Assembly: GCA_020851455.1 (NCBI GenBank)
Contig: JADZCT010000039.1
Location: 1 to 64,000 of the forward strand
Direction: 5' to 3'
DNA length: 64,000 bases
DNA from: Gemmatimonadaceae bacterium
GTDB taxonomy: Bacteria; Gemmatimonadota; Gemmatimonadetes; Gemmatimonadales; Gemmatimonadaceae
The notes under the pieces: generated by a model
What the model saw: only the letters and a program-made list of their open reading frames with translations
Database searches by the model: none
What the model was told of the DNA's origin: nothing
Translations under genes and position numbers: made by a program
Shown: one piece after another, positions 26,851 through 32,704 of the stretch
Layout: every line of letters starts with the position of its first letter
How positions within the stretch are numbered: the first letter of the stretch is position 1

Positions 26851-27165
26851 CTAGAAGGATCCGGTAAGGGCGAAGCGCGGATCCGCCATCCGGTGAACCT
26901 CGACCAGGAACTTCTTGACGTTGCGGTCGAGGCGGCTCTCCCCCATCGCGGTCGTGTCGGCTTCGATGAAGGTGTAGTGCCCGCCCTCCATCCAGACCTT
27001 GATGGTCAAGGAGGACACGACGTCGTCCGGCATGCCCACAGTCCCTTCCCACGAGCGCGCCCGCGGCGTGGAGCCCGTTGGGCGCATGCCGATCGTGGGG
27101 AAGAACTCGTCGGCCGCCTTGAGGACAGCGTCCGGGTGCACGGAGGTGCGATGGAAGTGCTTCAT
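26851..27165 (-). CDS. Small cytoplasmic protein of unknown function
   Basis: A 104-residue protein that starts MKHFHRTSVHPDAVLKAADE. The middle contains two probable beta strands (SSLTIKVWMEGGHYTFIEAD), and a helix follows (RLDRNVKKFLVEVHRMADP). No signal peptide. The ATG at 27165 overlaps the stop of the upstream lipoprotein by ATGA. I do not recognise it. Its place behind the inositol-lipid genes suggests a shared role, not a known one. Confidence 0.65.
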   Translation of the reverse strand: MKHFHRTSVHPDAVLKAADEFFPTIGMRPTGSTPRARSWEGTVGMPDDVVSSLTIKVWMEGGHYTFIEADTTAMGESRLDRNVKKFLVEVHRMADPRFALTGSF

Positions 27166-27629
27166 CGTGCTGTATCGGAAGAGGGGAACGGCGAGCCCGG
27201 GCGCACCATCTGGCGCCAGTCGAGCGTCTGCTGGAGGGCGGTGGATGTGTCCCTGCGGAACTGCACGCCCATGGCCCACTCGCCCGCCGTGACGAAGAGG
27301 AGCCGCGAGTGGTAGGTGCCAACCTCGGGCCCGTACGTGAACGCCTGCCATATGCTGTGACGGTCGGCGTTCGTCGCGAAGATGCGGCCCTGGCCGTTTA
27401 CGATCGGTTCCTTCGTCTTCTTGTCGCGAACGAAGATCGTGTACATGACCGGCTCCTGCGCGAGCGGAGGCGACGGATCCGAGAGCACGCGTATCTCGTA
27501 GTCGTCGGTCCAGAGCCGCTGCGACAGATCCGGTGGGTTTGGCGACCCGCAGGCCGACGCGAGGACGGCAAGGACCGCGACCGCGCCGGTGCGGGCAATC
27601 CGGGTTTGGAGCAGTGAATGAGGCATCAT
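27162..27629 (-). CDS. Putative lipoprotein, small beta-rich domain
   Basis: A 155-residue exported protein. The N-terminus TGAVAVLAVLASACGSPNPP is a lipoprotein-type signal with the modified Cys after ASA. The mature part is short and beta-rich (YEIRVLSDPSPPLAQEPVMY, then YTIFVRDKKTKEPI and GTYHSRLLFVTAGEWAMGVQ), a pattern like YtkA/FixH-type immunoglobulin-like domains, though I am not sure. It begins with ATGATG at the end of ino1; its stop overlaps the next gene. Confidence 0.7.
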   Translation of the reverse strand: MMPHSLLQTRIARTGAVAVLAVLASACGSPNPPDLSQRLWTDDYEIRVLSDPSPPLAQEPVMYTIFVRDKKTKEPIVNGQGRIFATNADRHSIWQAFTYGPEVGTYHSRLLFVTAGEWAMGVQFRRDTSTALQQTLDWRQMVRPGSPFPSSDTAR

Positions 27630-28948
27630 GGCTCATAGTACTCCAGTCCGAGGTGAGTGATCTGCTCTTCGCCCATGAGGTGCCGCAGCGTGTTCTTGAG
27701 CTTCGTCTGCTGGATGAAGAGGTCATGCTCCGGCTGCAGGCCCTCGACCACCATCGGCGACTTGTAGTAGAAGCTGAGCCATTCCTGGATGCCCTTCATC
27801 CCCGCCCGCTGGGCGAAGTCGCTGAAGAGGGCGAGGTCGAGCACGATAGGCGCAGCGAGGATAGAGTCGCGGCAGAGGAAGTTGACCTTGATCTGCATCG
27901 GGTAATTCATCCACCCGACGATGTCTATATTGTCCCAGCCTTCCTTGTTGTCCCCGCGCGGCGGGTAGTAGTTGATGCGTACGACGTGCGAGAAGCCCTC
28001 GTACAGGTCCGGGTACACTTCCGGCTGCAGGATGGTGCGCAGGACAGACAGCTTCGACTCTTCCTTCGTCTTGAACGACGCCGGGTCGTCGAGCACTTCG
28101 CCGTCGCGGTTGCCCAGGATGTTCGTGGAATACCAGCCGCGGAGGCCAAGCATGCGCGCCTTGAGTCCCGGCGCGATCACCGTCTTCATCCATGTCTGGC
28201 CGGTCTTGAAGTCCTTTCCCGAGATCGCAACGGCGCGGTCGAGCGCGAGGCGCTGCAGCGCGGGCGTGTCAACGGCGAGGTTTGGGGCGCCGTTGGCGTA
28301 CGGCACCCCTTCCATTATCGCGGCCCAGGCGTAGAGCATGGCCGGCGAGATGGCCTCGTCGTTCCGGTCCATGGCGCGCTCGAACTCCTCGATGGTCGAG
28401 TGCTGCTGGCCAGGACGAATGAAGACCTCGGTTGACCCGCACCAGACGACGACGACGCGGTCGAGCCTGTTGCGGGCCTTGAAGTCACGGATGTCCTGCC
28501 GGAGCTGGTCGGCGAGGTCGCGCTTCGTCGTGCCCGTCTTGACGTGCGTGCCGTGGATGCGCGTCACGTAGCGGTTGTCGAACACGGCGCTCATGGGGAC
28601 GATCCCCGAAAGGAACGGGGCGATCCGGTCGAGCTCGGCCGAGTTCAGGACGCCGGCGGTGCGGGCCGCCGTCAGCGCATCGTCGGGAATCGGGTCCCAC
28701 CCGCCGAAGACGAGGTCGTCGAGGCGCGCGAGGGGAACGAAGTCGCGAATGAGCGGCGAGCGCTGGTCGGTTCGCTTGCCGAGGCGGATGGTCGCCATCT
28801 GCGTGAGCGAGCCGATCGGCTTGCTGTACCCGCGGCGGACGCTCTCGACGCCGGCGATGAACGTGGTCGCGACCGCGCCGAGCCCGGGGGTGAGGATCCC
28901 CAGCCGGCCTGTCGCGGGGGCAATCGTGCGCGGCGCGGACGGGTTCAT
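27626..28948 (-). CDS. ino1: myo-Inositol-1-phosphate synthase
   Basis: It converts glucose 6-phosphate to 1L-myo-inositol 1-phosphate with NAD+. The 440-residue protein has the NAD region GRLGILTPGLGAVATTFIAG, the conserved core ISGKDFKTGQTWMKTVIAPG with the catalytic lysines, and STNILGNRDGEVLDDPASFK. The ATG at 28948 overlaps the stop of the CDP-alcohol phosphatidyltransferase gene (ATGA), so the track start is not used. The partner gene suggests inositol is used for phosphatidylinositol-type lipids. Confidence 0.95.
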   Translation of the reverse strand: MNPSAPRTIAPATGRLGILTPGLGAVATTFIAGVESVRRGYSKPIGSLTQMATIRLGKRTDQRSPLIRDFVPLARLDDLVFGGWDPIPDDALTAARTAGVLNSAELDRIAPFLSGIVPMSAVFDNRYVTRIHGTHVKTGTTKRDLADQLRQDIRDFKARNRLDRVVVVWCGSTEVFIRPGQQHSTIEEFERAMDRNDEAISPAMLYAWAAIMEGVPYANGAPNLAVDTPALQRLALDRAVAISGKDFKTGQTWMKTVIAPGLKARMLGLRGWYSTNILGNRDGEVLDDPASFKTKEESKLSVLRTILQPEVYPDLYEGFSHVVRINYYPPRGDNKEGWDNIDIVGWMNYPMQIKVNFLCRDSILAAPIVLDLALFSDFAQRAGMKGIQEWLSFYYKSPMVVEGLQPEHDLFIQQTKLKNTLRHLMGEEQITHLGLEYYEP

Positions 28949-29568
28949 CGTGCCGCCTCGGCGGTGGCGCGCCTCACGTACGCGATACGCTGGAAGACGG
29001 TAATCCACGATGTCACCGCGAGCAGCGTGACGATCGCCTTGAGCACGAGGCCGTCGAATGCGAGGCCGAAGAGGGCCTGCGGCGCGGCCATCAGCACGAT
29101 GCGCTCCGGCCGCTGCACGAGCCCCACGCGGGCGTCGAGGCCGAGCCCCTCGGCGCGCGCGCGGGTGTACGACGTGAGGTAGGACCCGACGATCGCAAAG
29201 AGGCAGACGACGACCATCGCGAGCGAATGCCGCGCTGTGCCGGAGGCCCAGAACACGGTAAACCCGCCAAGCACGGCGCCGTCGGCGATGCGGTCGAGGG
29301 TCGAATCATAGAACGCACCGAACTTCGACTCGAGGCCGCCACGCCTCGCCACCATGCCGTCGAGGACGTCGAACACCGCCGTCACCGAGAGTATCCAGCC
29401 GCCGATGCTGATGTGCCCCGAGGCAAAGGTCACGCCAGCAGCAATCGTGCAGAAGAGGCCTGTCGTCGTGATCGTGTTCGGCTTCACACCACGCTTCACC
29501 AGCCAGTCCGCGACCGGCGAGACGAGTCGGATGTATCCCCGTTGGATCCATTGCCAGACAGCCGACAT
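28945..29568 (-). CDS. CDP-alcohol phosphatidyltransferase (probable phosphatidylinositol phosphate synthase)
   Basis: An integral-membrane CDP-OH-P transferase, 207 residues from the ATG at 29568. The family signature D-x2-DG-x2-AR-x8-G-x3-D-x3-D is complete (DVLDGMVARRGGLESKFGAF, then YDSTLDR). About six membrane segments are likely. Co-translation with ino1 favours inositol 1-phosphate as the acceptor, as in mycobacterial PIP synthase; glycerol-phosphate (PgsA) is the alternative. A GTG at 29631 would add 21 residues and cannot be excluded. It leads a four-gene unit with ino1 and two small proteins. Confidence 0.85.
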   Translation of the reverse strand: MSAVWQWIQRGYIRLVSPVADWLVKRGVKPNTITTTGLFCTIAAGVTFASGHISIGGWILSVTAVFDVLDGMVARRGGLESKFGAFYDSTLDRIADGAVLGGFTVFWASGTARHSLAMVVVCLFAIVGSYLTSYTRARAEGLGLDARVGLVQRPERIVLMAAPQALFGLAFDGLVLKAIVTLLAVTSWITVFQRIAYVRRATAEAAR

Positions 29569-29593: not shown

Positions 29594-29639
29594 GGAGCCG
29601 CGGCTCCGATTGCGCCCAAGACGGCCGGCACGACCGGCC
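29594..29639. repeat. Two inverted repeats in the divergent region 29569-29737
   Basis: GGAGCCGCGGCTCC is a perfect 14-base palindrome (29594-29607), and GGCCGG-CACGA-CCGGCC is a stem-loop (29623-29639). They lie upstream of the phosphatidyltransferase ATG in the region between divergent genes. They could be operators or leader hairpins; if the GTG at 29631 is the start, they are partly coding. Confidence 0.4.
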
Positions 29640-29737: not shown

Positions 29738-32704
29738 ATGCGACCGACCCGCCGCTATCCGCGCCGAACGCTCGGGCCCATGCTCGCGGTTGCCTTCGCG
29801 GCGTGCGTTGCGTCACCGGGGGCGCCCGCGCCCGCCGCGGGAATCCCGCCCGTGGCGCCTGGCACGCGGCTCGACGCCCGGAGCCGACGATGGGTTGACG
29901 CCACGCTCGCCGGGCTGTCGCTGCGCGATCGCGTAGCGCAACTCGTCATGGTGTGGGTGCTCGGTGACTACACCAGCACGACCGACTCTACGTTCGCGCT
30001 GGTGCACGACTGGGTAGCCAACGAGCACGTTGGCGGCGTGGTGATGTCGCTCGGATCGCCGGTCGAGGTCGCGGCGAAGGTGAACGCGCTCCAGCAGGCT
30101 GCGCGCGTGCCGCTCCTCGTCGCGAGCGACCTGGAGCCGGGCCTGGGCCGGCTGGAAGGCGGCGTGTTCGCGCCAACGCTGTACACCGGGGGTTCGGCGA
30201 CGGTGCTGCCCGGTGCGATGGCGATCGGCGCGACCGGGAATCCATCGAACGCGGCCGAGGCGGGGCGAATCATCGGGGAGGAGGCGCGCGCCGTGGGAAT
30301 CCACATGGTGTTCGCGCCCGTGGTGGACGTGAACAACAATCCCGCAAACCCGGTGATCAACACGCGCAGCTTCGGGGAGGATCCTGAAGCCGTGTCGCGG
30401 ATGTCGGCGGCGTTCATCGGCGGTCTGCAATCGGCCGGCGTCGCGGCGACCGCGAAACATTTCCCTGGCCATGGAGACACCGACACGGACTCGCATCTCG
30501 CGCTGCCAGTGGTGCGCAGCGACCGCGCCCGCCTCGACGCGGTGGAGCTGCCGCCGTTCAGGGCCGCGATTGCCGCGGGTGTGGCTGGAGTGATGAGCGC
30601 GCACATCGCGCTGCCGTCCGTATCGCACGACTCGGTGCCGGCCACGCTTGCGCCTGGCATCATGCACGGCCTGCTGCGCGACGACCTTGGGTTTCGCGGA
30701 CTTACCGTCACCGACGCGCTGAACATGCAGGGCGTCGGCCAGGGCTACACCACGGAACAGGCCGCCGTCCGTGCCTTCAAAGCGGGAGGCGACATCCTCC
30801 TCATGCCCGCCGACACGAAGCGGGCGATAGATGCGGTGGTTGCCGCCGTCGAGCGCGGGGAAGTGACGCGCGCGCGCGTGGATTCATCGGTTCGGAGGGT
30901 GCTCGAGTACAAGGCGCGCACCGGCGCACCGTGGCGCAGGGCCGTATCCCTTGACTCGCTGCGGGTTGTGGTTGGCTCGGCCGCGCACCGGGAATCCGCC
31001 GCCCGGATCGCGCGGGCAGCGATCACGCTCCTGCGGGATGAGGGGTCCGTAGTTCCCATGCGGGGCGGCGCGACGCCGGCGGTAATCGTGTCATACGCAG
31101 CAGAGGACGATATCATGGCCGGCCGCGACTTCACCGCTGAGGCACGTGCCTCGCTGGCCAGCGTACGCGCGGTTCGAGTGACTCCGTCCACCGCGCGCCC
31201 GCAACTCGACTCGCTGCTCCGCCCGGGAGAGCGCGTCATCGTGCACGCGCTCGTGCGGACGTTCGAGGGTCAGGGACGCACGGCCCTCGCGCCCCAGTTC
31301 GCGGCGTGGCTCGACTCCGTTGCGGCCACGCGCCCGGTCGTGCTCGTGGCAAGCGGCAACCCGTACATCGTCCGTGAGGCGCCGCGCGTGGGGTCGTACC
31401 TCGCGACGTTCGGGCGCGGGCCAACCCTGGAGCGCGCGGCCGCCGCCGCGCTGACAGGGGCAGCACCGATCGCGGGACGCTCGCCGGTCTCGCTGCCGGG
31501 TTTTTTCAGCCGCGGCGACGGGCTGCAGCGGCCGTTCGTTGGCGCGGCGGGACCCGAGGACGCAGGAGAACCGCGGCGGGTGGCGGCCCCTGGAGGGGCC
31601 GCGCAAGGCAACGTCCGCAGGGCGCTCGCCGACACGCTCCACGCACTCCTCGATGCCGCAGTGCGCGACAGCGCCTTCCCAGGCGCCTACGCCGTGGTCG
31701 GCAACCACGAGGGAGCCCTGGCGTCGTATGGCGCAGGGCACCTCGACTGGTCGCCATCCCCCGTTCCGGACGGACGGACGCTCTGGGACATGGCGTCGCT
31801 CACGAAGGTCGTCGCGCTGACCTCCGTCATGATGCAACTCACGGCCGACGGCCGGGTGAACCTCGACGCGCCTGTCCAGCGGTACCTCCCCGCGTGGAAG
31901 GGTGCGCACAAGGAACTCGTGACGGTCCGCCACCTGCTCACCCACTCGTCGGGACTGCCGGCGTGGAGGCCGGTCTACAAGGAGGCAACGGATGCCGCCG
32001 CGGCGATGCGCCTCGTATACGACACTCCGCTCGACACGCTGCCCGGAGTACGCATGGTGTACTCGGACCTCGGGGCGATCCTGCTCGGCGAAGTCGTGCG
32101 CACGGTCACGGGAGAGCGTCTCGACGCGTACGCCGCGACGCACGTCTTCGCGCCGCTCGGAATGCGCGATACCAGGTTCCTGCCGCCGCCAAGCGAACTT
32201 GGCCGCATCGCGCCAACCGAGGTTGACCCGTGGCGGCAGCGCCACCTGCGCGGAGAGGTGCACGACGAGAATGCGTACGCGCTCGGCGGCGTGTCGGCGC
32301 ACGCAGGGCTCTTCAGCACGGGCGACGACCTCGTGCGGCTTGCGCGGGCCTACCTCGACGGCGGAACCCTCGACGGCGTGCGCGTATTCGATGCGGCCAC
32401 GATTCGCCTCTTCACCACCGTACAGGACTCGTCGTTCTCCAACCGTGCGCTCGGGTGGGAGACGCCCACCGGAAACAATTCGGCCGGCCACCTGCTGACG
32501 CGCCCGGCGTTCGGCCACACCGGGTTCACCGGGACGTCAATCTGGATAGATCCGTCGCGCGACATCTTCATCATCCTGCTGACCAACCGCGTGAACCCGA
32601 CGCGGGCCAACGTGAAGATCACACGCGTGCGGCAGGCGCTGGCCGACGCGGTCGCGGGCGCCGTCGGAGGCGCGGGTCCGGAGCGGAGCAGCCGACTGCG
32701 CTAG
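29738..32704 (+). CDS. GH3 beta-N-acetylhexosaminidase (NagZ-like) fused to a beta-lactamase-family serine hydrolase
   Basis: A 988-residue exported two-enzyme fusion. A signal or lipoprotein-type N-terminus (GPMLAVAFAACVASPG) is followed by a GH3 domain, about residues 45-570. The NagZ motif KHFPGHGDTDTDSH near residue 238 supplies the catalytic His-Asp dyad; FRGLTVTDALNMQG holds the nucleophile Asp. From about residue 620 a class C beta-lactamase/DD-peptidase-like domain carries S-x2-K in MASLTKVVALT (about 686), the Tyr motif MVYSDLGA (about 774), and HTG in place of KTG in GHTGFTGTSIW (about 926). NagZ removes GlcNAc from muropeptides; the second half may be a peptidase or esterase on the same material. 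Its stop overlaps a convergent gene. Confidence 0.93.
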   Translation: MRPTRRYPRRTLGPMLAVAFAACVASPGAPAPAAGIPPVAPGTRLDARSRRWVDATLAGLSLRDRVAQLVMVWVLGDYTSTTDSTFALVHDWVANEHVGGVVMSLGSPVEVAAKVNALQQAARVPLLVASDLEPGLGRLEGGVFAPTLYTGGSATVLPGAMAIGATGNPSNAAEAGRIIGEEARAVGIHMVFAPVVDVNNNPANPVINTRSFGEDPEAVSRMSAAFIGGLQSAGVAATAKHFPGHGDTDTDSHLALPVVRSDRARLDAVELPPFRAAIAAGVAGVMSAHIALPSVSHDSVPATLAPGIMHGLLRDDLGFRGLTVTDALNMQGVGQGYTTEQAAVRAFKAGGDILLMPADTKRAIDAVVAAVERGEVTRARVDSSVRRVLEYKARTGAPWRRAVSLDSLRVVVGSAAHRESAARIARAAITLLRDEGSVVPMRGGATPAVIVSYAAEDDIMAGRDFTAEARASLASVRAVRVTPSTARPQLDSLLRPGERVIVHALVRTFEGQGRTALAPQFAAWLDSVAATRPVVLVASGNPYIVREAPRVGSYLATFGRGPTLERAAAAALTGAAPIAGRSPVSLPGFFSRGDGLQRPFVGAAGPEDAGEPRRVAAPGGAAQGNVRRALADTLHALLDAAVRDSAFPGAYAVVGNHEGALASYGAGHLDWSPSPVPDGRTLWDMASLTKVVALTSVMMQLTADGRVNLDAPVQRYLPAWKGAHKELVTVRHLLTHSSGLPAWRPVYKEATDAAAAMRLVYDTPLDTLPGVRMVYSDLGAILLGEVVRTVTGERLDAYAATHVFAPLGMRDTRFLPPPSELGRIAPTEVDPWRQRHLRGEVHDENAYALGGVSAHAGLFSTGDDLVRLARAYLDGGTLDGVRVFDAATIRLFTTVQDSSFSNRALGWETPTGNNSAGHLLTRPAFGHTGFTGTSIWIDPSRDIFIILLTNRVNPTRANVKITRVRQALADAVAGAVGGAGPERSSRLR

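Follow-up and report, generated by a model that had tools for sequence, protein, structure and literature searches.

In this study, two overlapping genes were examined on the minus strand of a 64,000-nucleotide stretch of DNA (the window; contig C94), which belongs to a genome of 2.96 Mb that is 97% complete and whose nearest relatives are Gemmatimonadaceae. The first gene (28945–29568, ATG start at 29568) encodes a class I CDP-alcohol phosphotransferase of 207 aa, hereafter PIPS, and the second (27626–28948, ATG start at 28948) encodes an inositol-3-phosphate synthase of the Bacteroidetes/eukaryote-like type with 440 aa, hereafter MIPS. As the initial annotation had noted, the two genes share an ATGA at 28945–28948, in which the stop codon of PIPS overlaps the start codon of MIPS. 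Longer GTG starts are available at 29631 for PIPS and 29008 for MIPS, and the ATG starts are favored because the alignments of the relatives begin near them. The overlap suggests that PIPS and MIPS are translationally coupled.

Downstream, the gene of a putative lipoprotein of 155 aa (27162–27629, minus strand) overlaps the MIPS stop codon and is followed by the conserved gene of a 103-aa protein of no known family (26851–27162, minus strand); neither protein had a Pfam or NCBIfam match. These two genes separate MIPS from a 2-oxoacid dehydrogenase E2 gene, and in one relative the E1 subunits adjoin as well (L111, 8138–10257). The lipoprotein gene is conserved in 43 loci and is retained where MIPS has been lost. 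Since the downstream genes lack a domain match and are kept beside 2-oxoacid dehydrogenase genes even without MIPS, they were rejected as members of the pathway and treated as mere neighbors. On the other side, divergent from PIPS, lies a fusion of a GH3 (NagZ-like) and a serine beta-lactamase-family domain (29738–32704, plus strand), which is conserved at this place in 43 loci; locus L121, taken as G. aurantiaca, matches the beta-lactamase half only.

Identity of the synthase and the transferase

MIPS matched PF07994 (5e-95, 319 bits) and PF01658 (1e-32, 113 bits) in Pfam over its full length. Its best solved relative is the Bacteroides enzyme BT_1526 (7nwr; 552.7 bits, 60% identity, 423 residues), compared with at most 207 bits for the eukaryotic enzymes and 146 for the Archaeoglobus enzyme, and the Mycobacterium enzyme 1gr0 barely aligns (E 0.047). 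In the alignment, the equivalents of yeast D320, N350, K369, K373, D410, K412, D438, and K489, which we take to be the active-site residues, are all identical in the window's enzyme. BT_1526 has been assayed and shown to have MIPS activity, and inositol lipids are lost when it is deleted (PMC9246714).

The transferase matched PF01066 in Pfam (3e-16) and carries all eight residues of the signature DxxDGxxAR...GxxxDxxxD, which is near-invariant in the alignment across 68 relatives. The top NCBIfam profile was NF045883 (PIPSynth), the profile that also matches in Corynebacterium, at 169.6 bits; this is 0.4 short of the equivalog cut-off of 170, which is reached in five of the 249 phylum genomes. 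The runners-up were the archaetidylinositol phosphate synthase profile (151.5 bits) and then BT1523 (125.7 bits). Among solved structures, the transferase matched the PIP synthases RsPIPS (5d92, E 9e-30) and MtPgsA1 (6h53, E 4e-25). Alignment with these enzymes of R. salmoninarum and M. tuberculosis revealed that R94, S132, Y133, R137, R152, R155, and R195 (M. tuberculosis numbering) are kept and that K135 is replaced by R; R155, R195, and R94 correspond to R156, R194, and R93 in the window's enzyme. From structures and mutants, R155 and R195 (R153 and R191 in R. salmoninarum) were proposed to hold the phosphate group of the inositol phosphate (PMC4634129, PMC6506517) and were reported to be absolutely conserved among PIP synthases (PMC4634129), and R94 was reported to be crucial for the activity of the M. 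tuberculosis enzyme (PMC6506517). The inositol-phosphate arginines show no variation or almost none. The AF2 model is helical (pLDDT 90, pTM 0.81), and its comparison with solved folds placed 14 PIP synthase chains first (TM 0.74–0.89), whereas PGP synthase 7drj and PS synthase each reached a TM of 0.52; with a TM of 0.89 to 5d92, the model has the six-TM-helix integral membrane fold.

The family has two further members in the genome, a PgsA-like enzyme (105 bits) and PssA (122 bits), so a third CDP-alcohol enzyme would be dispensable for PG or PE. The residues, the predicted fold, and the separate PgsA therefore argue against a glycerol 3-phosphate transferase, which the initial annotation had named as the finding that would overturn its proposal, and on this basis of sequence and model we assign the transferase as a phosphatidylinositol-phosphate synthase. 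That it is a phosphatidylglycerophosphate (or phosphatidylserine) synthase standing beside MIPS by chance is scarcely credible: it shares a superfamily with these synthases and weakly matches the pgsA and pssA profiles (28.8 and 27.9 bits), but glycerol-3-phosphate or serine specificity was rejected in view of the dedicated paralogues, the arginines, and the much poorer fold match to PGP synthase.

The gene pair and its predicted product

In 67 of 80 relatives, the gene immediately upstream of MIPS, in the same orientation, is a PIPS; the exceptions are mostly Chloroflexota, Acidobacteria, and other phyla. The spacing is mostly between −8 and +62 nt, with −4 in eight relatives and +2 to +5 nt in many others, and this adjacency is not due to chance. 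With PIPS counted as present at E at most 1e-20, MIPS (PF07994) was found in 227 and PIPS in 237 of 249 Gemmatimonadota genomes; 220 have both genes, 17 PIPS alone, 7 MIPS alone, and 5 neither (Fisher p 0.0018, without correction for phylogeny). From these gene contents, inositol phospholipids are predicted to be a near-universal trait of the phylum. In Chloroflexota (Tepidiforma and relatives; L055, L056, L080, and L083), MIPS is 71–73% identical to the window's and has no adjacent upstream PIPS. The adjacent pair is present in both G019, presumably G. aurantiaca T-27, and G074, taken as Gemmatimonas groenlandica TET16; photosynthetic reaction-centre genes are found in G074 and are absent from G019.

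Sequence, predicted fold, and conservation establish the identity of both enzymes, their active-site residues, their coupling, and their co-conservation, and the gene pair very probably represents a two-gene inositol-phospholipid module. MIPS would convert glucose 6-phosphate to 1D-myo-inositol 3-phosphate with NAD+ as a redox-neutral cofactor. PIPS, predicted to span the membrane with six helices and to hold two metals at an aspartate site, would then move the phosphatidyl group from CDP-diacylglycerol to inositol 3-phosphate, yielding phosphatidylinositol phosphate (PIP), and a further phosphatase would probably turn PIP into phosphatidylinositol, the presumed membrane lipid. The route from glucose 6-phosphate and CDP-diacylglycerol to phosphatidylinositol phosphate had already been proposed in the initial annotation, and its enzymology appears well supported by the residues, the fold, and the separate PgsA. 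One CdsA gene is present in the genome. A PgpA-type phosphatase, the family of the Bacteroides PIP phosphatase, is absent from this genome and was rejected for this step; the family is also absent from 116 of 121 phylum genomes, and four of the five genomes that have it belong to the deep-branching family f10. Five PAP2-family genes and one IMPase gene are the unspecific candidates for the PIP phosphatase.

MIPS might instead chiefly supply another inositol product (free inositol made by the single IMPase, or a solute, surface glycan, or thiol cofactor), with the inositol lipid being minor. We regard this as unlikely: the IMPase-family gene is present, a little inositol reaches the capsule in Bacteroides (PMC9246714), and no PI has been reported from cultured relatives, but the coupling of MIPS with PIPS is tight and conserved, and MIPS without detected PIPS occurs in just the 7 of 249 genomes, and the assemblies of several of these are fragmented or incomplete. 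As for a thiol cofactor, no MshA scored above the cut-off in the genome, which holds only generic glycosyltransferases at that point; mycothiol is therefore an unlikely competing use of inositol phosphate and was rejected as its sink.

The proposed two-gene module can be compared with three known systems. Like the BT_1522–BT_1526 cluster of Bacteroides thetaiotaomicron (PMC9246714), the window holds MIPS (60% identical) and PIPS in one cluster in a Gram-negative phylum. Unlike that cluster, it has no adjacent PgpA-type PIP phosphatase, Gtr-A protein, or PI-ceramide synthase; its order is PIPS and then MIPS, overlapping; and its PIPS prefers the PIPSynth profile over the BT1523 profile. With the actinobacterial PIP synthases (RsPIPS and MtPgsA1), PIPS shares the fold, the signature motif, and the inositol-phosphate arginines, although Actinobacteria have a divergent MIPS (1gr0) and the MIPS to which the window's PIPS is coupled is Bacteroidetes-like. 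The archaeal archaetidylinositol phosphate synthase (NF040950) performs the same inositol phosphate chemistry with CDP-archaeol as the donor, and the score of PIPS against its profile is under the 180-bit cut-off.

Replacement and loss of MIPS

In family f10, which branches deeply and lies outside the class, PIPS is present and PF07994 has no match, and four of the six genomes have a PF01658 protein instead. The one checked (G007) is a Mycobacterium-type MIPS, matching 1gr0 at 509.6 bits; a gene of this type lies at L102 (928–2055), from the deep-branching family, which keeps PIPS and lacks the Bacteroidetes-like MIPS. In C. glutamicum, the Mycobacterium-type MIPS was likewise missed by PF07994 and found by PF01658.

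Three genomes from the window's own genus have PIPS without either type of MIPS, and so do eight from genus g2; their completeness is 92–100%. Relocation of MIPS elsewhere in these genomes was rejected, as both PF07994 and PF01658 were negative there. In the seven MIPS-less genomes examined, only MIPS is gone from an otherwise intact neighborhood. Two loci of the window's genus retain a C-terminal remnant of MIPS between intact PIPS and lipoprotein genes (L106, 7212–7382; L107, 6324–6508, the latter in two frames). Between the two genomes with remnants, PIPS has a dN of 0.023 and a dS of 0.631 (dN/dS about 0.04), and the orphan PIPS keep the inositol-phosphate pocket residues, apart from R137, which is K in some. 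Because dN/dS is low and these residues are kept, PIPS stayed under strong purifying selection after the loss of MIPS.

The retention of PIPS in genomes without detected MIPS, where no source of the acceptor is apparent, counts against the module, as do the narrowly missed equivalog cut-off of PIPS, the absence of a PgpA-type phosphatase, and the lipid profiles of cultured Gemmatimonadota. The simplest reading is inositol salvage in these genomes, and another acceptor is possible. PIPS throughout the phylum might take a different or broader polyol phosphate, inositol phosphate being just one of its acceptors; we consider this improbable, as the selection on PIPS beside MIPS remnants and its retention in genus g2 would accord with it, but the pocket residues kept in the orphan enzymes fit inositol salvage equally. 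It is a further, unlikely, conjecture that PIPS in the MIPS-less Gemmatimonadaceae makes a phospholipid with an unreported polyol-phosphate headgroup and that the window's enzyme shares this wider specificity.

Predicted inositol lipids in Gemmatimonadota

The published lipid profiles of cultured Gemmatimonadota name no PI: the major polar lipids of G. groenlandica are PE, an aminolipid, and DPG (PMC7844134), and those of Gaopeijia are PE, PG, DPG, and an aminolipid (PMC11651109). As these profiles represent the major lipids detected by TLC, PI may have been missed through low abundance or poor extraction, and the extraction of PIP is poor without acid (PMC9246714). In an incomplete literature search, no publication that connects inositol lipids to Gemmatimonadota came up.

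The initial annotation had pointed to inositol lipids in a Gram-negative-type organism; the enzyme genes are indeed present, but the novelty is diminished, since inositol lipids made by homologous enzymes have already been characterized in Bacteroidetes (2022, PMC9246714), so that a Gram-negative host is to be expected by now, and the enzymes are of known kinds. What is new, to our knowledge, is the phylum-wide trait, the pair in cultured Gemmatimonas despite TLC profiles that name no PI, the PIPS of f10 with a Mycobacterium-type MIPS, and the loss of MIPS in some Gemmatimonadaceae with PIPS under selection.

The phylum-wide spread, the mismatch with the published lipid profiles, and the losses of MIPS make the system worth following. 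The combination of a Bacteroidetes-like MIPS with a PIPSynth-like PIPS, together with the Mycobacterium-type MIPS that replaces the Bacteroidetes-like one in f10, bears on the spread of bacterial inositol lipids, and close relatives that have deleted MIPS and kept PIPS at the same locus offer a natural experiment on the source of inositol phosphate. As Gemmatimonadota are a common soil and freshwater phylum, Gram-negative and poorly cultured, the predicted inositol lipids would extend to strains that are held in culture collections.
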